This document shows, piece by piece, positions 2,494 through 53,387 of a stretch of DNA of 53,387 nucleotides. The stretch covers positions 5,150-58,536 of the forward strand of contig JALWMA010000040.1 in the NCBI GenBank assembly GCA_027081015.1, in the 5' to 3' direction. A model generated the notes under the pieces. The model was not told the origin of the DNA and made no database searches. It worked only from the letters and a program-made list of their open reading frames with translations. How positions within the stretch are numbered: position 1 is the stretch's first letter; the number at the start of each line of letters is the position of its first letter. The stretch comes from Campylobacterales bacterium. GTDB lineage: Bacteria > Campylobacterota > Campylobacteria > Campylobacterales > Hydrogenimonadaceae. Position numbers and translations under genes: made by a program.

Positions 2494-3171
2494 TCATCCT
2501 ATACTGTCTCTCACTTTTGTAATCACCCTCTTGTGGACCTGCGATATTCTCGACGGGGTTATATCCAGAATCTCCGAGATCTCCTTGTATGTGAGCTCTT
2601 CGAAGTAGTACATCTGTATAATCATCTGGTCCCGCTCAGACATCGTTTTGAGAACATCCATGATCTTCTCTATGAGCTCCTCCTGCTCTATGGTCGAAAA
2701 GGCGTCCCTCTCGTTGCTCTCGAGCTGGTCATGCAGCGGCATGACGTTGTAGATCGCTGCGACGCGACGGGCATCTTTTATCTTCTGCTCATCCTCCTGG
2801 AGTATCTCGGCTATATATGCGTTTTCCGGCTCGACACCGTACTCGTCCATATATTGCGAGATTATCTCGTCTATCTGCTTTATAAGCTTTCTGTTGGCGC
2901 GACTCACGATATCCAGAGAGCGCAGGTAGTCGAGCATGGAGCCGTACACCCTGCTTTTGGCATACCCCCAGAACGAATCGTTCTGCTCCCTGTCGTAACG
3001 TCTCGCCAGTTTTATGAGCTCCTCCGCACCTATGCTGACCAGGTCGTCAAACTCCACCGATCTCGGAAGCCGCTCTTTGAGCCTGTAGGCCATCGCTTTG
3101 ACCGCCGGCAGATATTTGACCGCCATCTCGTCCTGATAGTGGCGAATATGCGCATCGTATCCTTCAACCAT
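2494..3171 (-). CDS. fliA: RNA polymerase sigma-28 factor FliA
   Basis: The product (225 aa from ATG at 3171) is a flagellar sigma-70 family factor with region 2 near residues 15-90 (readings VEFDDLVSIGAEELIKL and SFWGYAKSRVYGSMLDYLR) and a region 4 helix-turn-helix near the C-terminus (ITPSRISQVHKRV). It directs late flagellar genes and is held by FlgM in related bacteria. Its start overlaps the stop of the upstream membrane protein in a GTGATG arrangement, so GTG at 3174 is an alternative start one codon earlier. The neighbours are those of Campylobacter fliA. Confidence 0.94.
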   Translation of the reverse strand: MVEGYDAHIRHYQDEMAVKYLPAVKAMAYRLKERLPRSVEFDDLVSIGAEELIKLARRYDREQNDSFWGYAKSRVYGSMLDYLRSLDIVSRANRKLIKQIDEIISQYMDEYGVEPENAYIAEILQEDEQKIKDARRVAAIYNVMPLHDQLESNERDAFSTIEQEELIEKIMDVLKTMSERDQMIIQMYYFEELTYKEISEILDITPSRISQVHKRVITKVRDSIG

Positions 3172-3509
3172 CACCTATCCCCATCCTTTTTCACACCTTG
3201 CACCGATGTTTCGTCATCTTTCGAAATATATGCGTAGTTCGCATCCAGCTCGCTCTCACGCTGCAGCAGCTGGTTGTAGAAGTAGTCGAGCTTCCTGTCG
3301 TACTCCTCCTTTTCGAAATGTACCTTCCCGAACTCCATGAAGCGGACAAACAGAGCCACGCTAACATGTGCCAGCAGATAGAAAAAGAGTGTTACGGAGA
3401 GGACGACCGAGACTACCGCCATAGGGTCGCCCGTTCCCATAAAGGCGGCAAGCAGCCCTATAAAAAAGCCGCATACCACCCAAAAAGCGACAAAGTTGCT
3501 CTCACGCAT
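3171..3509 (-). CDS. Small membrane protein of the flhG-fliA interval (Cj0062c type)
   Basis: This 112-residue protein has two predicted membrane helices (about residues 5-24 and 30-54) and a charged, probably coiled-coil cytoplasmic tail. I chose ATG at 3509 because the longer reading would run back into flhG in another frame. Campylobacter has a similarly sized integral membrane protein of unknown function at the same place, between flhG and fliA, so this is a conserved member of the operon. A link to flagellar assembly is inferred only from position. Its stop overlaps the fliA start. Confidence 0.75.
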   Translation of the reverse strand: MRESNFVAFWVVCGFFIGLLAAFMGTGDPMAVVSVVLSVTLFFYLLAHVSVALFVRFMEFGKVHFEKEEYDRKLDYFYNQLLQRESELDANYAYISKDDETSVQGVKKDGDR

Positions 3510-3519
3510 TACAATCCCT

Positions 3520-4389
3520 CTAAAACTGCCCCAGCAGCTTTTTGAAAAAGGTGCCGATTCCGCCCTCTCTGCCTCTATCAAGCATTTTGTGTTCCTTTTT
3601 GTCCGCAAGAGCCAGCGCTATCGCCTCTATATCCGCGGCCGGGGCTATACTGGCGAGCTCCTTGCACACAAGAACCCTCTGCTTCACGCTCCTTGAAACA
3701 TGCACGTCCGATCTGACCGAACCGAGCATCCTGAGCTGCAGATCTTCGCCTATGTTTCCGGAAGCGACCTTCTTAATTGTATCAAATATCTTCGTCCCCT
3801 CTTTATGACCGCGCACCTGGTTCACCACCATGTACAGGTCGCTCTTTATCCTGCTTATTACCTTCACCATCGCGTATGCGTCGGTGATGGCGGCCGGGTC
3901 CGGAACGGTCACCACGACCACGTCGTCTGCCGCGCGCAGGAACATCTGTATCGTATCTCCTATGCCCGCCCCGGTGTCGATTATAAGAAAGTCGAGCCCC
4001 TCGAGCATCTGCGACTCGTCTATAAAGCGGCTCACTATCGTGGCGTCGGAGAACTTGAGTATCTCATCGCCGCTCTCTCCGGGTATGAGAAACAGATTCT
4101 CCTCCAAAGGTATCACGATATCTTTGAAACCCGCTTCACCCTTGAGAACATGGAGAATATTCTTCTGCGCACGAACGTTGAACATGACATCGAGATTTGC
4201 CAGCCCTATGTCGGCATCCATGAGCCCCACCTTGAAGCCGCGGGATGCAAGCACATAGGAGATATTGGCGCTGAGGGTGCTCTTGCCCACTCCCCCTTTT
4301 CCGCTGGTGATCGCTATGACCCTCGTTCCGCCGTTTTTGCTGCGGTGGGCATCCATCAGAGCCTCGAGCTTGCTCGCCTGCGTACTCAT
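3520..4389 (-). CDS. flhG: Flagellar number regulator FlhG (MinD-like ATPase)
   Basis: This 289-residue ParA/MinD-type ATPase has a deviant Walker A motif SGKGGVGKST at residues 29-38, followed by LMDADIGLANLDVMF and a Walker B-like DFLIIDTGAGIG. FlhG partners FlhF and limits flagellar number; in Campylobacter it also affects division placement. ATG at 4389 is chosen over a start 21 codons upstream because GGGAGG precedes it and its ATG overlaps the flhF TGA (ATGA). The N-terminal TQASKLEAL then resembles the DQAxxLR-type segment that FlhG proteins use to stimulate the FlhF GTPase. The C-terminal helix (GTFFKKLLGQF) may bind membrane. Confidence 0.93.
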   Translation of the reverse strand: MSTQASKLEALMDAHRSKNGGTRVIAITSGKGGVGKSTLSANISYVLASRGFKVGLMDADIGLANLDVMFNVRAQKNILHVLKGEAGFKDIVIPLEENLFLIPGESGDEILKFSDATIVSRFIDESQMLEGLDFLIIDTGAGIGDTIQMFLRAADDVVVVTVPDPAAITDAYAMVKVISRIKSDLYMVVNQVRGHKEGTKIFDTIKKVASGNIGEDLQLRMLGSVRSDVHVSRSVKQRVLVCKELASIAPAADIEAIALALADKKEHKMLDRGREGGIGTFFKKLLGQF

Positions 4390-44537: not shown

Positions 44538-44885
44538 CTAATCTTTCGGTACGACGATGCGCGGTATGAGATCCTCTTTTTCAATAAGCTTGTCGACGGC
44601 CTCTTTCGCGACAGATGTGGCGAACGCTGGGTGGTTTTGGGGGTTGAAGCGGTTTTTCATTCCCTCGGGCATCGCACTCTTCTCTTTCGATGGAGCTGTC
44701 AGGAAATCGACCATCTTTTTTTCTATTCGCGCCTTGGAGCTGTATAGCATGAGGTACCGACGATATACAAGAGAGAGCGGCGGTGCACTCTTTTCATGGC
44801 AGACAGTACACCGTTGGGGTATGGCGCTTTGACCGGCGGCTATAGAGTGAAATCCCAGAAACAAAACCAGTACTACTCTTTCCAT
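44538..44885 (-). CDS. Small c-type cytochrome
   Basis: This 115-residue secreted protein has a signal peptide (MERVVLVLFLGFHSIAAG) and one heme c motif, RCTVCHEKS (Cys-Thr-Val-Cys-His) at about residues 26-30. A candidate axial Met lies in SAMPEGMKNRF. It has a single heme and is compact, so it may pass electrons or act as a heme sensor; function is unknown. Its ATG lies within the last codons of the histidine kinase (13-base overlap), so it is co-translated with the sensor, an unusual partner. Confidence 0.82.
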   Translation of the reverse strand: MERVVLVLFLGFHSIAAGQSAIPQRCTVCHEKSAPPLSLVYRRYLMLYSSKARIEKKMVDFLTAPSKEKSAMPEGMKNRFNPQNHPAFATSVAKEAVDKLIEKEDLIPRIVVPKD

Positions 44886-46048
44886 GCAACCCTCACTCTC
44901 GTTCCTAAGCCTTTTTCACTACTCAAATCAAAACTCAATCCGTAGAACTCCACGATTTCCCGAACGATATTCAGTCCCAAACCGAATCCCCCCACACTGG
45001 TATCTGCACGGAAAAAACGTTCGGTCGCCCGCCTCATATCGCGGGCATCCATACCGATCCCGTCATCCTCTACCTCAAATGAACGTTCATCAAGTCTCAC
45101 GACGATCCGGCCGCCCGGACGGGTATACTTGATTGAGTTTGATAGAAGGTTGTCGATGAGCTTGGCTGCATCCTCTCGGTCCATTTGAAGAGTCGGAGCA
45201 GACAAAACTTCACTCTCAAACCCAATATCTCTACGTTGCGCCATCGGAGCGAAATATGAAATACGCTCCTCAAGGATTTCATGGAAGTCGATCCTCTCTA
45301 TATGGCGTCTTCGCCTGTGCTTTAGTTGCAGATAGGCCAGGTCGTCATATAGGCGACTCAGACGTTTCGATGCCACTTCGATACGGCGAAGCTCTTCACT
45401 CGACTCCAGTTCCGGATGCAGACTCTTGAATAGTTCTACATTTGTCAAAATGGTGCTGACCGGAGTGTTGAGTTCATGGGTTGTATCCTGTATAAAACGA
45501 TCGAGCAGCTTTATCGTATGGTGGACCGGCGCAAGAAATAGCCTTCCGAGCCAACGGGCGATAAAGGCGACAAATATTGCGGACAGAACAAGTGCGACAA
45601 CTATCTTTGCCTGCAGGGCGAGAATTGGAGTTTTATCCAGAGGTATTGACGAAACGATCGTCGCCGCCCCCAGATAGTACGGCTGCATCTCATCTCGGTA
45701 GTATATAGTGTCGCCCTCCTGCCAAAACTCTCTGTTCCAAAGAACTTTGTCCGGCTTGAAGTCACCTATGAGATAGTGGCGGTCGATATCGTATAGAGCA
45801 GTACTGATCCCATCTATCCTGGGATAGACGAGACGGTTTTCGGTCGAAGTGTGCAACTCCCGCAGCCTTGGACGGATCAAGGCGGTTTTAAGTTTAAGCG
45901 TTTCGTTCTGGTGGTCGACGATACGGTGAAGGCTATAGCTATAAAAGATCGCCAGCCCTATACCGATAAGAAGCAGCGTCGATACGAGGTAGATGGCAAG
46001 AAAACGCCTGTGACTCTTCTTTTCACTCTCAAAAACGTGAAAATTCAT
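44873..46048 (-). CDS. Sensor histidine kinase of the efflux operon
   Basis: This 391-residue kinase has two helices (about 15-37 and 145-170) around a periplasmic sensor of about 110 residues, then a HisKA domain with the acceptor His in FIQDTTHELNTPVSTIL, and an ATPase domain with N box LIDNLLSNSIKYTRPGG, G1 box VEDDGIGMDA and G2 box GGFGLGLNIVREI. There is no obvious HAMP domain. It overlaps the regulator upstream by 4 bases and the cytochrome downstream. It probably controls the efflux genes of its own operon. Confidence 0.92.
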   Translation of the reverse strand: MNFHVFESEKKSHRRFLAIYLVSTLLLIGIGLAIFYSYSLHRIVDHQNETLKLKTALIRPRLRELHTSTENRLVYPRIDGISTALYDIDRHYLIGDFKPDKVLWNREFWQEGDTIYYRDEMQPYYLGAATIVSSIPLDKTPILALQAKIVVALVLSAIFVAFIARWLGRLFLAPVHHTIKLLDRFIQDTTHELNTPVSTILTNVELFKSLHPELESSEELRRIEVASKRLSRLYDDLAYLQLKHRRRRHIERIDFHEILEERISYFAPMAQRRDIGFESEVLSAPTLQMDREDAAKLIDNLLSNSIKYTRPGGRIVVRLDERSFEVEDDGIGMDARDMRRATERFFRADTSVGGFGLGLNIVREIVEFYGLSFDLSSEKGLGTRVRVAWKE

Positions 46049-46728
46049 CTCCTATTCTTTTTACTTCTGTAACGGTATCCAATCTCTTTGACGGTCTCTA
46101 TGCGCTCTTTGCCCAGATGCTTACGCAAGACCTTTACGAAAGTCCTGAGGCTCCCTTCGTTCGGTGTTTCGCCGTAGTCCCACAAAGCACTCAAAATCTC
46201 CTCTTTTCGCAAGGTTTTATCGGGATTTTGTAAAAAGAGTGCCAGCAGCCTGCTCTCTTTCGGTTTTAGCGGAATCCGTTCACCCTCGAACGAAAGAGTG
46301 AAGTCTATTGGATCGAAACGGAGCTTTTCATCTATGGTGACAGTATTGTTCGCTCCCGGATAACGCCTTTTTATAACCGCCTCTATACGTGCGAGCAGCT
46401 CCTTTAGGGCAAAAGGTTTGCGAATGTAGTCATCGCAGCCGGCATCGAAACCGCGGGTGGCATCGTCGGCACCGTGCAGAGAAGTAATGAAGATGGCAGG
46501 AGTATCCTGCCCGATACGGCGAAACTCCGACAGAAGGTCTATACCGTTTTGAAGAGGCACCTTCACATCCAGCAACCATAAGTCGAAACCGTTTTCATAC
46601 ATTTTCTCGGCAGCCTCTTCACCATCGAAACTCTGCACCACCTCAAACCCTTCAGTACGCAGGAACTTGGCAATCGTATCGCTAAGTTCCATATCGTCTT
46701 CAAGCAGAAGGATTTTAGGTCTCATCAT
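46045..46728 (-). CDS. OmpR-family response regulator of the efflux operon
   Basis: This 227-residue regulator has a receiver (2-115) with the pocket LLLEDDMEL, acceptor Asp in LWLLDVKVPLQNGID and Lys in IRKPFALKELL, and a winged-helix DNA-binding domain ending in TFVKVLRKHLGKERIETVKEIGYRYR. The start ATG at 46728 (or 46725) lies just after the ATPase stop. OmpR-type proteins bind tandem direct repeats about 10-11 bp apart, which matches the GTTCA repeats upstream of tolC, the small ORF and the DUF2202 gene. Confidence 0.92.
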   Translation of the reverse strand: MMRPKILLLEDDMELSDTIAKFLRTEGFEVVQSFDGEEAAEKMYENGFDLWLLDVKVPLQNGIDLLSEFRRIGQDTPAIFITSLHGADDATRGFDAGCDDYIRKPFALKELLARIEAVIKRRYPGANNTVTIDEKLRFDPIDFTLSFEGERIPLKPKESRLLALFLQNPDKTLRKEEILSALWDYGETPNEGSLRTFVKVLRKHLGKERIETVKEIGYRYRSKKNRR

Positions 46729-46732
46729 TGGC

Positions 46733-47449
46733 TCATACAATCAAGTGGGCGCTCTGGGTCGTCGTAACAACTTTACGATTCTCAATAGAGAGTATTTTAT
46801 CACAATAGGGCAGGAGCCGATCATCATGAGTCACCATGATGATCGCGACATTCTGCTCCTCAACGATCCTGCGCAGCATCTTGACAACACTTACGGCTCT
46901 CTCCATATCCAGTGCAGCCGTAGGCTCGTCGGCAAGGATGATCTTCGGCTCGTTGGATAGTGCCCTCGCGATAGCCGCCCTCTGATTCTGTCCGCCTGAG
47001 AGCTGAGAAGGCATCGCGTTGCGCTTGTCCGCAATATCGAAATACTCCAACAGTTCCATCGCCTTCTTTTCCGCCTTTTCATCGGGCCATCCGTTTACAA
47101 GAGGAATAAGCTTGACATTCTCTACAATATTCAAAAACGGAATAAGATAGTGGGCCTGAAAGATAAAACCTATTTTCTCTCTGCGAATGCGCCTCGTATC
47201 AGGTGTACTCCAACGATCTTCATCCCATACCAGTTCATCACCGAGCCAGATCTTTCCGGCAGTCGGCTCGATAACACAGCCAAGCATCATCAACAGTGTA
47301 GTCTTACCCGCACCGCTGGGTGCGACAAGGGCGGCGAACTCACCCTTTTTTACCTCCAAAGAAGCGTTCTCCAAAACCCTGACTTCACTCTCTCCCGACC
47401 CGAATATCTTCGTGAGGTTTTCTACTTTGATACCGACTTCATTGGTCAT
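46733..47449 (-). CDS. ABC transporter ATPase (LolD/MacB type)
   Basis: This 238-residue ATPase has Walker A ALVAPSGAGKTTLL, signature PSQLSGGQNQRAAIARALS, Walker B IILADEPTAALD and switch His in IIMVTHDDRL. The first Gly of the Walker A motif (GxxGxGKT) is replaced by Ala; the key GxGKT part is intact, so activity is likely. It forms the motor of a MacAB-like, tripartite exporter with the permease, fusion protein and TolC encoded upstream. It is followed by the response regulator. Confidence 0.93.
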   Translation of the reverse strand: MTNEVGIKVENLTKIFGSGESEVRVLENASLEVKKGEFAALVAPSGAGKTTLLMMLGCVIEPTAGKIWLGDELVWDEDRWSTPDTRRIRREKIGFIFQAHYLIPFLNIVENVKLIPLVNGWPDEKAEKKAMELLEYFDIADKRNAMPSQLSGGQNQRAAIARALSNEPKIILADEPTAALDMERAVSVVKMLRRIVEEQNVAIIMVTHDDRLLPYCDKILSIENRKVVTTTQSAHLIV

Positions 47450-47450
47450 A

Positions 47451-48602
47451 TCAACCCCCTATCGCCGCACTGGGATCTGCTTTGATCGCTTTATATACAC
47501 CAAAGAGACTGGCCAAAACGGACGCAACCAGTATTATGCTGAAGAGTGCCCAGGCGTCATCCATCTCAAGAACTACACGTTTCGGAAACTTATCCCAGAT
47601 TGCATGGGCAAAGAGATTACCGAATATGAAGGCCAAAACGCCCAGCGTTACCGTCTCTTGGGCAATCATTTTGGTTATCGTCATATTTGGCAGCCCAACA
47701 AGCTTCATAATCGAAATCTCCTTGATCTTTTCAAGGGTCATCGTATATATTATCAGCGCAATTATTATCGTCGAAACCCCTACCAAAATCACTGTGAACA
47801 TCCCTATCTGTTTGCTGGCGGTCTCTATGACATTCTTTGTCAAAATATTTCGCTCATCGCTTACGGTAAAGGCGCTCAAGTGTTTCCAGCGGCGGATATT
47901 CTCGGCCACAGCATCGGGATCGCTCCCTTTTACGACTGTAGCGACAACCGCATTGACAAGATGGTTGTCGGCATCTACTTTCAACCCACGGGCCCGGTCG
48001 TTTCTGATTCGTGCGTTGGAGTATAGAAACTGTAACTCCTGTGCATCTTTTAGACTCACATATATCACAGGATCTCCACCGGAGGAGACTGCCCCTTTGG
48101 TAATACCTACGACTGTATATATGTTTCGCCCAAGTCGAATCTTATCCTGCAGCCTGAAACCAAGCTTTTGCGAAACCACAATCTCGTAATGACTCTTTTC
48201 GATAGAACGTCCCGCAACAAGCCGTTCAGGATTAATAGCCGGAAGATCGCCATGAGGGTCGTAGCCGACACTGTATACCCGTTTCATTATACCGTCAGGT
48301 GTTTTGATCTGCAGATTCAAAAATGCCAGAGCGGCAGTCTTATCGATCTCCGGGTTGACCCGCAGCGTATTCTTTAGATCTTCGTGAACACGGGAGCTCT
48401 CGGCAAAAGGTCCAAGAGTGTTCTCCTGCACCACCCATAAATCGGCACCGATATCATCCAGCAGTACCTGAGCATCGATGACCATACCTCTATAGACCCC
48501 TATCATAATAAGGACTATACCAAGCAACATTCCCACTCCCATTGCCGTGACTATGAACTTGAGGTATGAATGGGCAATATCTTTATAGGCAAGATTGATC
48601 AT
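47451..48602 (-). CDS. ABC transporter permease, FtsX/MacB type
   Basis: This 383-residue permease has a helix at about 14-36, a large periplasmic domain (about 40-265) and three helices at the C-terminus (about 270-375), including the FtsX-like TLEKIKEISIMKLVGLPN cytoplasmic segment after the second helix. It is of the mechanotransmission class that does not itself carry substrate through the membrane but drives the fusion protein/TolC conduit. It lies between the fusion protein (4-base overlap) and the ATPase. Confidence 0.9.
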   Translation of the reverse strand: MINLAYKDIAHSYLKFIVTAMGVGMLLGIVLIMIGVYRGMVIDAQVLLDDIGADLWVVQENTLGPFAESSRVHEDLKNTLRVNPEIDKTAALAFLNLQIKTPDGIMKRVYSVGYDPHGDLPAINPERLVAGRSIEKSHYEIVVSQKLGFRLQDKIRLGRNIYTVVGITKGAVSSGGDPVIYVSLKDAQELQFLYSNARIRNDRARGLKVDADNHLVNAVVATVVKGSDPDAVAENIRRWKHLSAFTVSDERNILTKNVIETASKQIGMFTVILVGVSTIIIALIIYTMTLEKIKEISIMKLVGLPNMTITKMIAQETVTLGVLAFIFGNLFAHAIWDKFPKRVVLEMDDAWALFSIILVASVLASLFGVYKAIKADPSAAIGG

Positions 48603-49732
48603 AGCCGAATATCCGCACCTTCAAACAGCGGTTTTTTATGTGGATCCGGAACAAGGATCTTCTCACCCTCTTCTATACCTTTAACCCCGGCGAACTTGTC
48701 GTTTTTGCCTACTATTTCGATCTTTTTGAAGTGCGCCTCTCCATTTTTATAGACCCATACGCCTCCTCGTCGTATAAGGTCGAGAGGGATAAGCAAAACA
48801 TTGCTCAATCGCCCCGTCTCGATAATCACTTCCGCCTGTTCATTGATATAGAACGGAAAAGGCACCTTTTCAAACGCCACATCAACTACACGCTCTTCTG
48901 TAACAGGATCGCTCTCGGCTTCAATTCGCGCCACATAACCCTGAAGTTTCTCTCCAGATTTAGAACGTAGCAGTATTTCGGCTTTTTGGCCTTTGGCTAT
49001 TTTTCCACTGATACGCTCATCAACATAGGCTTTCACCCATACCTCTTGCGGATCCACGACTGTAATCAGAGGCTGCTGTGGCACAATAGTTTGGCCCACT
49101 TCAGCATCTTTTCGTATTACATAGCCCTCTGCAGGGGAAACTACACGAAGACGTGCAATTTTCTGCATGAGAGCATCGATACTCTTTTGAGCTCGTTTCT
49201 GCTCCGAAATAGTGGACTCAATCCGGGCTCTTGACGCTTCAATCTGCGCTTCGATCGCCTCCAGATCGGTACGTGCTTTGTCATACTCCGCCTGAGCCGC
49301 ATACCCTTTTTGAAACAGTTTGTCGTATCGGTCATATGTAAGTTTGGCCAGTTTTCGCTGCGCCAGAAGTGCTTCCAGCTCTTTTTTTGCAGCTACGGTT
49401 TCATGGCCGGCTTTTTCTAACAGTGCCTTGGCCTGAGCAAGTTGATCAGGTAGATCGACAGGATCGAGAACGGCTACCGTTTCACCTTTTTTGACCCACT
49501 CCCCCTGATCCTTTAAAATTTGTATAACCTTCCCGCCTGTATTCGATGCGACAGGACGAATAATTTTGGAACTGACTGTTCCGATGCCGTAAACCGTTAA
49601 AGATAGTTCGCCTTTTTTTGCCGTGACACTCTCGTATGTCGCTTTGGGAATGTAAACTTTGGTATAAAAAAGCGTAGCAGCCGCCACCAAAACAAGAGCT
49701 GCTATAGCCCACTTCAACCATCTATTTGCCAT
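48599..49732 (-). CDS. HlyD/MacA-family membrane fusion protein
   Basis: This 377-residue adaptor has an N-terminal helix (about 6-24), a lipoyl-like half (GKVIQILKDQGEWVKKGETV), a long alpha-helical hairpin (about 90-190, with many Ala/Lys/Glu), the second lipoyl half (LRVVSPAEGYVIRKDAEVGQ) and a beta-barrel part. It bridges the permease and TolC. ATG at 49732 is chosen for GGAG 7 bases upstream; a reading 10 codons longer runs further into tolC. Confidence 0.92.
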   Translation of the reverse strand: MANRWLKWAIAALVLVAAATLFYTKVYIPKATYESVTAKKGELSLTVYGIGTVSSKIIRPVASNTGGKVIQILKDQGEWVKKGETVAVLDPVDLPDQLAQAKALLEKAGHETVAAKKELEALLAQRKLAKLTYDRYDKLFQKGYAAQAEYDKARTDLEAIEAQIEASRARIESTISEQKRAQKSIDALMQKIARLRVVSPAEGYVIRKDAEVGQTIVPQQPLITVVDPQEVWVKAYVDERISGKIAKGQKAEILLRSKSGEKLQGYVARIEAESDPVTEERVVDVAFEKVPFPFYINEQAEVIIETGRLSNVLLIPLDLIRRGGVWVYKNGEAHFKKIEIVGKNDKFAGVKGIEEGEKILVPDPHKKPLFEGADIRL

Positions 49733-50969
49733 TGAGATACTCCAATCTGTAGAGTTGTTCAAGTCTTGTATAATAAGTGTTTAGAAGGCCAAGTTTGGCA
49801 TCCAACCAGACCGCTTCCGAATCGAGAACCTCCATATATGTGGCCAATCCCTGTTCGTAGCGTGCTTCAATCAAAGACTTGGTCTCTTCGGCCGAGTGCA
49901 ACTGGGAAAGACGCGCATCTATCCTCTTCTGAACCTCACTCAGATCAGCCAAAAGAGAACGAACCTCCTTATCGATAGACCGTTTCTTGGATTCTCTCTC
50001 CTCTGCCGAAACCATCTCTTCGATTCTGCTCTGCTGAGCCTGGGCACTAAGGCGTCCGCCACTGTAAATAGGTGCACTGTAACGAATACCTATCACGGTA
50101 GAGTCGTAACTAGACAGAGTATCGAAATGGCTCGCTTCCGCCACCAGGTCAATCGATCCGAAACGCTCTACCCGTTTGGAACGGTACGACTCATAGGATG
50201 CTTCCCGACTCTTTTGTGCTATTTTAATCTGCAGGTTATTTGCAACCACTTTATCCGGATCACTATTTTCAGGCTGCCCCTCTGAGCCGTTCAATCTCCA
50301 CTCCTCAAACCTTGTATCTTCGGTGATCCGTTCACCGATATACTCTTCGAGCGTGATTCGTGCCTTTTTGTAGTCTGCCTGAGCAAGGGCAAGGGCATCT
50401 TCGGCCTGACGAACCGAAGATAAGAAACGGCTCTCGTCAGCCCTTGTCTTCAATCCCTGTTTCACAAGTGCCCTGGCTTGTTCATAGAGAGCTTTTTTTG
50501 CTTCAAGATCTTTCCTGCGGGCATCAAGAGCCGCCTCTTGAACCAGTATCTGCGCATACGCCACCCGTATACGGTATCGCATAAGCGCCTTGGCCTCTTC
50601 AAGTGAAAGACGGGAAACTTCATGACGAATTTTAGCCGATTGTATGGAGTGGGAGGATTTTGAGAAGTCATAGAGCTTTTGACTTGCACTGATTCCGACG
50701 CTCCACCCGTCACTATCGATAGTATTGAACTCTCCGTTGAGTGGAATGACATATGTGCGTCGAGGGTCATATTCGGCATATATGGATACCTTTGGAAGCA
50801 AGGCCCCTCTCTCCATTTTCACCCCTTCATTCTGCTGTTTGACCTTAAGCATAAAGGTACGTACATCGGGATGGGTAGCCAAAGCTTTATCGATACATGT
50901 ATCCAGACTCAAAAGTTCTGCCTGTAAACCTATGGCGGCGACTATGATCAGTATCGTAATTTTTTTCAT
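49722..50969 (-). CDS. TolC-family outer membrane efflux protein
   Basis: This 415-residue outer membrane channel has a signal peptide (MKKITILIIVAAIGLQA), then two repeats of coiled-coil hairpin and beta-strands typical of TolC: IDKALATHPDVRTFMLKV, YDFSKSSHSIQSAKI, and in the second half RYSAPIYSGGRLSAQAQQ with ARYEQGLATYMEVLDSE. It is the first gene of the efflux operon. The GTTCA direct repeat and a candidate -10 lie 7-39 bases upstream. Confidence 0.92.
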   Translation of the reverse strand: MKKITILIIVAAIGLQAELLSLDTCIDKALATHPDVRTFMLKVKQQNEGVKMERGALLPKVSIYAEYDPRRTYVIPLNGEFNTIDSDGWSVGISASQKLYDFSKSSHSIQSAKIRHEVSRLSLEEAKALMRYRIRVAYAQILVQEAALDARRKDLEAKKALYEQARALVKQGLKTRADESRFLSSVRQAEDALALAQADYKKARITLEEYIGERITEDTRFEEWRLNGSEGQPENSDPDKVVANNLQIKIAQKSREASYESYRSKRVERFGSIDLVAEASHFDTLSSYDSTVIGIRYSAPIYSGGRLSAQAQQSRIEEMVSAEERESKKRSIDKEVRSLLADLSEVQKRIDARLSQLHSAEETKSLIEARYEQGLATYMEVLDSEAVWLDAKLGLLNTYYTRLEQLYRLEYLNGK

Positions 50970-50975
50970 ACCGAT

Positions 50976-51008
50976 ACTTTAACATATAATGCTGAACGCA
51001 ATGTGAAC
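50976..51008 (-). promoter_or_regulatory. GTTCA direct repeat and promoter upstream of tolC
   Basis: On the minus strand GTTCA (51008-51004), six bases, GTTCA (50997-50993) are followed after 11 bases by TAAAGT (50981-50976), a fair -10. The 11-bp period places both half-sites on one face of the helix next to the -35 position, as for OmpR-type activators. Confidence 0.55.
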
Positions 51009-51067
51009 ATCTACGGGAAATCTATTTTTCGGAGTACCATCGCCCACATAACTGCCTGCCACAGATC

Positions 51068-51167
51068 AAACTACAAATAATTGGGATGGCTTTTCGTCGT
51101 TTGTAGTTTAAAAGGGGCTGCGCCCCTTTTAGTCACCAGTCGATAGAAGGCTGCGCAGCAGCCATCC
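51068..51167. repeat. Structured intergenic region with nested inverted repeats
   Basis: AAACTACAAA (51068-51077) pairs with TTTGTAGTTT (51100-51109). AAAAGGGGC-TGC-GCCCCTTTT (51110-51130) is a strong hairpin that could terminate transcription of the small ORF or DUF2202 message. GGATGGCT (51084-51091) matches the inverse AGCCATCC (51160-51167), and GGCTGC/GCAGCC forms another stem near 51149-51163. No coding frame is supported in 51009-51271. Confidence 0.55.
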
Positions 51168-51271
51168 TCAACTGTTAACTTTCCGTTTTTCACTTTTCAC
51201 TAAAAAAGTAGTTACCTAAAGAGGTTTATTATCTCATCCCTCTTCCCATTCCCGTACCGTGCATTTTTGCT

Positions 51272-51445
51272 TTACAGTTGCATTGCACTGTTTGCACACA
51301 TATATGGCGTTTGCCCTTTGAGCAGTTTTTGATAGATTTCATAATGGTAGTTCAAAACTTCTCTCGCCTTCCGTACGGTTTTATACGAGTCGTTAATCAT
51401 TGATGCTCCTGAAGCGATAGTAAAGGCGGCTCTTTTCCTCTTCAT
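51272..51445 (-). CDS. Small ORF downstream of the DUF2202 gene, unknown function
   Basis: This 57-codon frame starts at ATG 51445 (GGGG about 8 bases upstream) and has its own GTTCA-type site and -10-like sequence just upstream, which supports it. The product is basic, with helical MINDSYKTVRKAREVLNYHY and KLLKGQTPYMCANSAMQL at the end. Near the stop, both other frames read Cys-rich sequence: YVCKQCNATVKQKC in one and ICVQTVQCNCKAKMHGTGMG in the other. Loss of one AT from the short run ATATAT would join the ORF to the first of these and give about 69 residues. It may therefore be a frameshifted gene. Confidence 0.45.
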   Translation of the reverse strand: MKRKRAAFTIASGASMINDSYKTVRKAREVLNYHYEIYQKLLKGQTPYMCANSAMQL

Positions 51446-51468
51446 CTATCACCCCTTTCTTACATCGG

Positions 51469-51500
51469 TTATTACACAGTAACATGAACCTAATATGAAT
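51469..51500 (-). promoter_or_regulatory. Direct repeat ATTCA-N6-GTTCA upstream of the small ORF
   Basis: On the minus strand ATTCA (51500-51496), six bases, GTTCA (51489-51485) have the same 11-bp period as the tolC and DUF2202 sites. TGTAATAA follows 8-10 bases later as a candidate -10. The ATG follows about 24 bases after that. Confidence 0.5.
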
Positions 51501-51534
51501 GGAGCGTAGATGAGGGCTGATCTACTCAGCGTCC

Positions 51535-52803
51535 TTAATTGTAGCCTTGCCCGTTGCCGGCAGGATACTCCTCTTCCGTTTTACAGTACTCTTCACCCAA
51601 CGAACAGCATCCATCGGTAACGCCCAGGTTTTTGAGCGCCCGGTCGAAGGCCCAATAGTGGTTGTAACTACCGCTGCGAAGAAAGCTTAATACGATAGTA
51701 ATGTCTTCTGCATCACCGGCTATTTCGATATCTTCATCCAAGTCGTTTACATCGGTTACTTCGACCATACATCCTACCTCCAGGGCGTCTTGAAGCGACT
51801 GGCTTCCCTTGCTATATAGTGTGTCGTAAAGCTCTTGAACTTCCGGTACACTGAACTGGCCGGGTGCCAAGGCTCTAAGCTCCTCTTCGGAGTATCTGAT
51901 TTCGTAGTTATCAAGGTTGGTAATATTGATATCGTACTTTTGTACCAGACTCTCCACAGCGGCTTCGTGTCTGGTTTCCGAACGCGTCGCGATATTGTAT
52001 AGGGTCTGATGCGGCGTCAAATCGTTAAGGGCGAGATAGATATCTTTGGCCATTTTCTCTTCGTTCCACATATAGGCCAATGTATATTTCTGTTCATCGG
52101 TCAGATTCGATTCGGGAAGTTTATCTACAATTTCTCCGATATCGAATTGTGACAGATTCTCATCTCCGGTCAATTTAGGAATAGCCAGCTCGTCTACCAG
52201 TTCGTTTTCGAGCTCCGAAGCCGGCGTGTCGGTCTCTAAATAGGACTGAATCCGGTTTTGAATCCGTGCCTGAATCGTCTCCAACTGTTGCAACGTCAGA
52301 GTCGAGGGATCGGCAATACGGTTTTCGATACAGTAGGCAAAAACTTCGTCACTTATTGCCGCAACCGTACGGTTTGTCGAAGGTGTCGCGTCGTCTATTG
52401 TCGTGTCGTCCAGACCGAAAATATCTTTCAACCAGTTGCGAGTATCTGCATTCGCCGCGATCGTATTGACTAGAGTTGCAGCTTTGCCCGTGGAGGCTTT
52501 CAGGATGACGGAGTTGTTGATGTCCCCGGCATTCACTACACCGTCGCGGTTAAGGTCAATAAAGCCGCCATAGGCTGAAACAGGGTATTCTGGTGTCTCG
52601 GTGAACCGATAACGGCCTTGACCGATTTCCCGGGCCTGACTACCGGCCTTGTCAAGAACCAGGGCGTGGAGAACCGGCCCTCTCTCTACGGTGACGTCAT
52701 AGCCGGTCACCGCAGTCGTGTCGTCCAAAGAACTCCCGCCACCACAACCAGCCATAAGCATAATCCCCAAAATTGCTCCCATAGAGGTCGTTACTTTTTT
52801 CAT
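51535..52803 (-). CDS. DUF2202 ferritin-like lipoprotein
   Basis: This 422-residue lipoprotein begins with a type II signal peptide ending in MLMAGCGGG (lipobox Cys at about residue 20). FIDLNRDGVVNAGD resembles a dockerin/EF-hand calcium loop (about residues 85-98). The C-terminal part is a DUF2202 domain: KYTLAYMWNEEKMAKDIYLA, ATRSETRHEAAVESL and YNHYWAFDRALKNLGV, with paired Glu/His as in ferritin-like diiron folds. It ends with a Cys-rich DGCCSLGEEYC. ATG at 52803 has AAGGAG 6 bases upstream. The role is unknown, perhaps metal binding at the outer membrane. Confidence 0.85.
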   Translation of the reverse strand: MKKVTTSMGAILGIMLMAGCGGGSSLDDTTAVTGYDVTVERGPVLHALVLDKAGSQAREIGQGRYRFTETPEYPVSAYGGFIDLNRDGVVNAGDINNSVILKASTGKAATLVNTIAANADTRNWLKDIFGLDDTTIDDATPSTNRTVAAISDEVFAYCIENRIADPSTLTLQQLETIQARIQNRIQSYLETDTPASELENELVDELAIPKLTGDENLSQFDIGEIVDKLPESNLTDEQKYTLAYMWNEEKMAKDIYLALNDLTPHQTLYNIATRSETRHEAAVESLVQKYDINITNLDNYEIRYSEEELRALAPGQFSVPEVQELYDTLYSKGSQSLQDALEVGCMVEVTDVNDLDEDIEIAGDAEDITIVLSFLRSGSYNHYWAFDRALKNLGVTDGCCSLGEEYCKTEEEYPAGNGQGYN

Positions 52804-53279
52804 TTTTTCTCCTTCAAGATTCGATCTTGCCATTATAAAGCAATAGCATTAGCGAAGTATTACCTGTTTCCTTAGCTCAAAGGGATAATATCGAGACAGT
52901 GTGAACACAATTTGAACAGCTTGTTGTAATTTTTTACTTGTAATTCATGGAATAAATCAACAATGAAATTCATGACTATTAATAGTGCAGGTGGGTTGGC
53001 AGTGATAATAGATACGACTTTCTTCCTGTCTACCATGATTCGAACTATGAGACTACTTGTAGCGGGCAACCTCTAACAAAGACAGATGTTTGAAAGAGAA
53101 AAGGTGTGGAAATAAACTGCGCTATCGGTTTTCATCTTGTGAGATGAATGGAAAGTATATATGGAAGCTCAAACAGATTGTTTATGTGCCAGAATCCTCG
53201 CTAGAAGGGTTCTACGTCGAGTCCATGAATCTATATTGGGAGTAAGCAAAAAGAGTTGTAAATAAAGAAGAAAGCCTCA
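52804..53279. other. Intergenic region between DUF2202 and 5S rRNA
   Basis: Apart from the direct-repeat promoter at 52885-52917, I see no supported gene in these 476 bases. A short plus-strand reading near 53100-53245 (RCGNKLRYRFSSCEMNGKY, stop at 53243) might be a remnant, but has no start or known relatives that I can name. Confidence 0.4.
52885..52917 (-). promoter_or_regulatory. GTTCA direct repeat and promoter upstream of DUF2202
   Basis: On the minus strand GTTCA (52917-52913), six bases, GTTCA (52906-52902) are followed after 11 bases by TATTAT (52890-52885), a good -10. The layout repeats that seen upstream of tolC. The gene begins 82 bases downstream. Confidence 0.6.
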
Positions 53280-53387
53280 AGTCCGGCACCGACCTACGTT
53301 CCCACACCCGAGGGGTGCAGTATCATCAGCGCTGAGGGGCTTGACTTCCGGGTTCGGTATGGGACCGGGTAGGACCCCCTCGCTATA
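53280..53387 (-). rRNA. rrf: 5S ribosomal RNA (5' end beyond the window)
   Basis: Read on the minus strand, this starts TATAGCGAGGGGGTCCTACC and continues with the universally conserved CCCATACCGAACCCGGAAGT, GATGATACTGC and GGGAACGTAGGTCGGTGCCG of 5S rRNA. The 3' GCCGGACT should pair with a 5' end outside the window. About 108 of roughly 118 bases are present. A T-rich stretch follows the gene. The 23S gene is expected just beyond the right edge. Confidence 0.95.

Follow-up and report, generated by a model that had tools for sequence, protein, structure and literature searches.

A putative GTTCA-repeat regulon of an OmpR-family regulator joining a MacAB-like exporter, a DUF2202 lipoprotein and haem proteins in a Campylobacterales bacterium

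The window (the whole stretch of DNA analysed here, 53,387 nucleotides of contig JALWMA010000040.1 from a Campylobacterales bacterium of the Hydrogenimonadaceae) carries on its minus strand an operon with the gene order tolC-hlyD-permease-ATPase-response regulator (RR)-histidine kinase (HK)-cytochrome. The leading gene is predicted to encode a TolC-family outer membrane channel (49722..50969; PF02321, E=1e-52) and is followed by genes for an HlyD/MacA-like periplasmic adaptor (48599..49732; PF16576, with TIGR01730 over its cut-off), an FtsX/MacB_PCD permease encoded apart from its ATPase (47451..48602; PF02687 and PF12704) and an ABC ATPase of the LolD/DevA/MacB-like kind (46733..47449; PF00005, with TIGR02211 and TIGR02982 below cut-off). 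Behind these lie an OmpR-family RR (46045..46728; PF00072 and PF00486), which is the proposed activator and which did not reach the cut-off of the PhoB model, a sensor HK (44873..46048; PF00512 and PF02518) and a mono-haem c-type cytochrome with the motif CTVCH (44538..44885), whose gene overlaps that of the kinase and which matched no Pfam family over its cut-off. The RR-HK-cytochrome trio is kept across the order, and a mono-haem cytochrome with no Pfam family over its cut-off comes after the kinase gene, in many cases overlapping it, in the window, in locus L188 and in loci L221-L235 and L238-L250, which represent several Campylobacterales families.

A first-pass annotation of the sequence had described the transport genes as a MacAB/TolC-type exporter, which is accurate as far as likeness to MacAB is concerned and too specific if a MacB equivalog is meant. 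The locus shares with the MacAB-TolC and DevBCA-TolC systems an adaptor, a MacB_PCD/FtsX permease, a LolD/DevA-like ATPase and a TolC channel, but none of the exporter proteins reached the curated cut-offs of the MacA, MacB, DevA, DevB or DevC models. In place of a fused ATPase-permease the locus encodes an ATPase of 238 and a permease of 383 amino acids; the ATPase scored 168 bits against a MacB model cut-off of 966 and the permease gave no match to that model, so that assignment as a MacB equivalog was rejected. No relative of the permease was found among solved structures at E<=0.001. A scan with the permease returned 50 loci, mostly from Campylobacterota, the closest named relative being from Hydrogenimonas sp. 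(99% identity). Relatives were also observed in Thiomicrorhabdus (L040-L043 and L046; 62-66% identity) and in Azoarcus/Aromatoleum (L067-L070; 43-44%), and their occurrence in gamma- and betaproteobacteria suggests horizontal transfer.

Upstream of the operon, also on the minus strand, is a gene for a predicted DUF2202 lipoprotein (51535..52803; PF09968, E=1e-27) with the lipobox LMAGC and a dockerin-like segment (DLNRDGVVNAGD); we take DUF2202 to belong to the ferritin clan. Between the two lies a 57-codon open reading frame (51272..51445, minus strand) which had been read as a small Cys-containing protein. That reading was ruled out by alignment to a related locus (L031, positions 2833-3694), in which three collinear blocks in two reading frames were recovered, corresponding to the promoter and start of a Haem_bd gene, an inner part of a cytochrome c gene and, in the other frame, the cytochrome c tail (VQCNCKAKMHGTGMGRGMR), the rest having been deleted; the open reading frame is not an intact gene but the remnant that deletion has left of a Haem_bd and cytochrome c unit. 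No intact copy of the remnant's cytochrome c was found in the window's genome, and its sequence is present in genomes G006 and G007. A Haem_bd paralog (81% identical) is located on contig C124, with no recognisable site of the kind described below in the retrieved flank. The end of the window (53275-53387, minus strand) resembles a 5S rRNA gene.

Three direct repeats of the form GTTCA-N6-GTTCA had been reported before these genes, and all three were found on the minus strand, two exact and one with a single mismatch. Operator 1 (GTTCACATTGCGTTCA; 51008-50993) is exact and lies upstream of tolC, 39 bases from its start, with a -10 box TAAAGT (50981-50976) 11 bases past it. Operator 3 (GTTCAAATTGTGTTCA; 52917-52902), also exact, lies upstream of the DUF2202 gene, 114 bases from its start, and is likewise followed after 11 bases by a -10 box, TATTAT (52890-52885). 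Operator 2 (ATTCATATTAGGTTCA; 51500-51485), with one mismatch, precedes the remnant, has a weak -10 box, and in relatives would drive Haem_bd and cytochrome c; on the alignment, this putative operator has outlasted the genes it served. The gap between repeat and -10 box, first put at 8-11 bases, is better given as 11.

The scarcity of the pattern was then assessed by pattern searches over the 2.14 Mb genome. Exact GTTCA-N6-GTTCA occurs three times, twice at this locus and once within a 439-codon open reading frame; at up to one mismatch there were 79 matches against 20 for the reversed pattern. A central TT (positions 8-9) was common to all good sites, and comparison with relatives refined the operator to RTTCA-NN-TT-NN-GTTCA followed 11 bases on by a -10 box TANNNT. 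In its refined form (RTTCANNTTNNGTTCA) the operator was found three times in the genome, all at this locus, with none for the reversed control, bearing out the expectation that the pattern would be rare elsewhere. Over 18 genomes of the genus there were 22 matches and 0 for the reversed pattern, counts to be read knowing that the refined motif was derived partly from the same sites. Eighteen of the 22 are clearly placed as promoter elements, ahead of genes for c-type cytochromes, an EF-hand/DUF1104 protein, Haem_bd (or what remains of it), DUF2202 or tolC. Three others fall within coding sequence, and one (G013:C123), before a 237-codon open reading frame, has no clear -10. Eleven one-mismatch sites were also found in the genome, seven within long open reading frames and four outside; as those four lack a convincing -10 box, a larger regulon in this genome was rejected. 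The least bad of the four (C73:7474; GTTCATCTTCGGTACA) precedes a 155-codon open reading frame with a signal-like internal start.

TANNNT stands exactly 11 bases past the repeat in 14 of 19 tabulated promoters and at 10-12 bases in 17 of them, and no consensus -35 hexamer was seen at the 17-base position of these promoters. Given this spacing, the repeat occupies the place of the -35 element, which by analogy with PhoB/OmpR-type systems would be the geometry of class II activation. Pho boxes of the PhoB type are head-to-tail 11-bp repeats that replace the -35 element, with the -10 about 11 bases downstream; the repeat layout is the same as at this locus and the half site differs.

Orthologous tolC and DUF2202 genes of the relatives were examined for the site, and its conservation before them was confirmed. 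The distance from the operator to the tolC start is exactly 39 bases in the window, L031, L032, L033, L034, L036, L077 (a truncated contig) and G001, and 40 bases in G012 and G013. A site is present wherever an RR that is at least 70% identical sits behind exporter genes with a readable tolC promoter (L031, L032, L033, L034 and L036), and exporter loci without such an RR (L035, L037, L038, L039 and G003) have none. In G016 an RR of 67% identity is encoded away from the exporter, and the exporter promoter has no site. All three sites (before DUF2202, before Haem_bd followed by cytochrome c, and before tolC) were found in L031 and L032.

In genomes G002 and G017 (L177 and L184) the genes RR-HK-DUF2202-tolC-hlyD-permease-ATPase, with Haem_bd in addition in G002, form one unit with a single site (ATTCACGTTGCGTTAA) near the RR start and a -10 at N12. 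What is predicted to be a three-operator regulon in the window is thus apparently a single-promoter operon in these two genomes, and no other independent evidence speaks as strongly for a functional regulon as this interchange of operon and regulon. The RR of G002 and G017 is divergent (40-43% identity), so that similar half sites go with more than one RR clade. The trio of RR, HK and cytochrome genes is widespread in other families, where diverged sites (ATTGATATTTGGTTGA, GTTGATATTCAGTTCA, ATTGATATAGCGTTCA and GTTCACATTGGGTTTA, with the -10 mostly at N11) were found before the RR gene (L222, L224, L225, L227 and L235) and ahead of DUF2202 or of whichever gene follows the cytochrome (L225, L227, L231, L232 and L235), at p<=0.01 against shuffles. 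Several genomes carry a core version of the trio in which the cytochrome gene is followed by TTCAC-N6-TTCAC and then by small periplasmic and cytochrome c genes.

The window's genome also encodes on contig C107 (L188, G000:C107:1-6000) a related RR, 52% identical, in the same RR-HK-cytochrome order, and this paralog might bind the sites as well; a core RR of about 50% identity is found in the majority of the genomes of the genus, and the core-type TTCAC-N6-TTCAC sites agree with those of the window in period and in distance to the -10. It is nevertheless unlikely that this paralog is the main reader of the sites and that the operon RR has another target. Genomes with the approximately 50% RR and without the operon RR (G002, G003, G008, G009, G011 and G017) have no exact RTTCANNTTNNGTTCA site, and the C107 trio has a different site of its own after the cytochrome (TTTCACGATCACTCCA-N11-TACAAT, which is weak at p=0.1, with an exact TTTCACGATCACTTCAC in G006). 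The window RR also falls in a clade apart from the core clade, which includes the C107 paralog, and their recognition helices (NEGSLRTFVKVLRKHLGK and SESSLRTYIKNLRKIIGK; TFVKVLRKH versus TYIKNLRKI) are unlike; separate clades and helix differences together fit with operators that have diverged.

Direct repeats lying across the -35 region could also block polymerase, and the sites might be repressor sites or be bound by an unrelated regulator that happens to precede these genes. Such a reading is very improbable given the missing -35 hexamer, a gap to the -10 fixed at 11 as in PhoB/OmpR-type activators, and the fact that the site travels with the RR-HK genes, being found directly ahead of the RR gene in G002 and G017 as well as in several other families. 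Least probable of all, to the point of being negligible, is that short A/T-rich direct repeats arose by chance and are functionless. The window taken alone might allow it, as its six matches at up to one mismatch are only mildly unusual (shuffles gave a mean of 2.63, and six were reached in 3 of 100), but the restriction to this locus genome-wide, the 22 matches against none for the reversed control, the fixed distances to the -10 box and start codon, and the conservation across families all speak against it.

We consider it highly probable, from the distribution of the sites, that the three repeats are putative operators of the RR encoded in the operon (46045-46728), joining the exporter operon, DUF2202 and, in relatives, Haem_bd and cytochrome c. 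The compact regulon proposed in the first-pass annotation, in which an OmpR-family activator from the first operon would control exporter, cytochrome and DUF2202 lipoprotein, is supported by both the genome restriction and the conservation in relatives; judged on sequence, it appears to be a real and conserved regulon that was rightly deduced from three short repeats, with one gene mis-called. In the proposed mechanism a dimer of the phosphorylated RR would bind the two GTTCA half sites head-to-tail, the half sites would stand in for the missing -35 element, and the bound RR would recruit RNA polymerase to the -10 box 11 bases downstream, by class II activation rather than repression. This would place the exporter/sensor operon under positive feedback and would at the same time induce the DUF2202 lipoprotein as well as, in relatives with the intact unit, the Haem_bd protein and cytochrome c.

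In its layout the locus follows the logic of the published DccRS regulon, a parallel that the first-pass annotation had not drawn, and it appears to be a branch of a known kind rather than a new category. The consensus for DccR of Campylobacter jejuni is reportedly WTTCAC-N6-TTCACW (Wosten 2010). As with DccRS (Cj1223c-Cj1222c), the locus has an OmpR-family RR with its HK, a TTCA-core direct repeat of 11-bp period in place of the -35, and a MacAB-like exporter as a target. The exact consensus is absent, as in the window the first TTCA of a site is preceded by G or A and the second by G, and the half site here is GTTCA with a central TT; WTTCACN6TTCACN10TANNNT was not found in the window's own genome. 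Unlike in DccRS, the RR and HK genes are part of the operon that encodes the exporter, the kinase gene is followed by one for a haem cytochrome, DUF2202, Haem_bd and cytochrome c are predicted targets, and the exporter ATPase and permease are separate rather than a fused 642-aa MacB. Across the order, 176 of 399 genomes carry the WTTCACN6TTCACN10TANNNT pattern, for which control sites numbered about 44. In one genus with a Campylobacter-like gene order the TTCAC site, with the same distance from repeat to -10 as at this locus, lies before MacA, a 642-644-aa MacB and MacC; before a 138-aa periplasmic protein with genes of 440 and 454 aa behind it; and before a 127-aa protein followed by genes resembling rarA, dapB and purF. 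These three contexts are presumably Cj0606-0608, Cj1626c and Cj0200c of the DccR regulon. In one Campylobacter-like locus (L288, G253:C33), TTCAC-N6-TTCAC and a -10 were also observed before an apparent RND efflux adaptor-pump pair. CrdRS of Helicobacter pylori, which is linked to copper and nitrosative stress, likewise controls an envelope efflux system and differs from the locus in controlling the copper resistance determinant CrdA/CrdAB-CzcBA. It is a small Campylobacterota OmpR-type two-component system (PMC9449129). In C. jejuni, MacABC (Cj0606-0608) and Cj0200c have been linked to DccRS (PMC11365321), whose targets include the tripartite MacAB-like exporter and small periplasmic proteins (PMC11365321; PMC7118207) and which is activated by growth phase and not by copper (PMC7118207). 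The regulon described here may represent a DccRS-type branch within the Campylobacterota in which specificity has moved from TTCAC-N6-TTCAC to GTTCA-NN-TT-NN-GTTCA.

The predicted targets (exporter, DUF2202 lipoprotein, haem proteins and, in G001, an EF-hand protein) are all periplasmic or envelope proteins, and the most likely stimulus would be envelope or periplasmic redox stress, with a metal also possible. The cytochrome after the kinase has a conserved C..CH...YL..YS pattern, and we tentatively suggest, as a minority possibility, that it could be the kinase's sensory subunit, a periplasmic haem sensor that serves systems of the DccRS type by reading redox state or a ligand (oxygen, NO or electron-transport state); the predicted targets here are haem and ferritin-like periplasmic proteins themselves.

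The same regulatory logic as that of C. jejuni DccRS would operate in a free-living vent relative, tying together a regulator, an exporter, haem proteins and a ferritin-like lipoprotein, and the cytochrome gene kept beside the kinase gives a concrete hypothesis for what DccRS-type kinases may sense. The locus provides a clean example of a predicted regulon whose genes share one operon in some species and are divided among three units elsewhere, as well as an example of paralogous regulators, two in the same genome, whose operators appear to have diverged. The operator GTTCA-NN-TT-NN-GTTCA-N11-TANNNT may be used for the prediction of regulons across the Campylobacterota.
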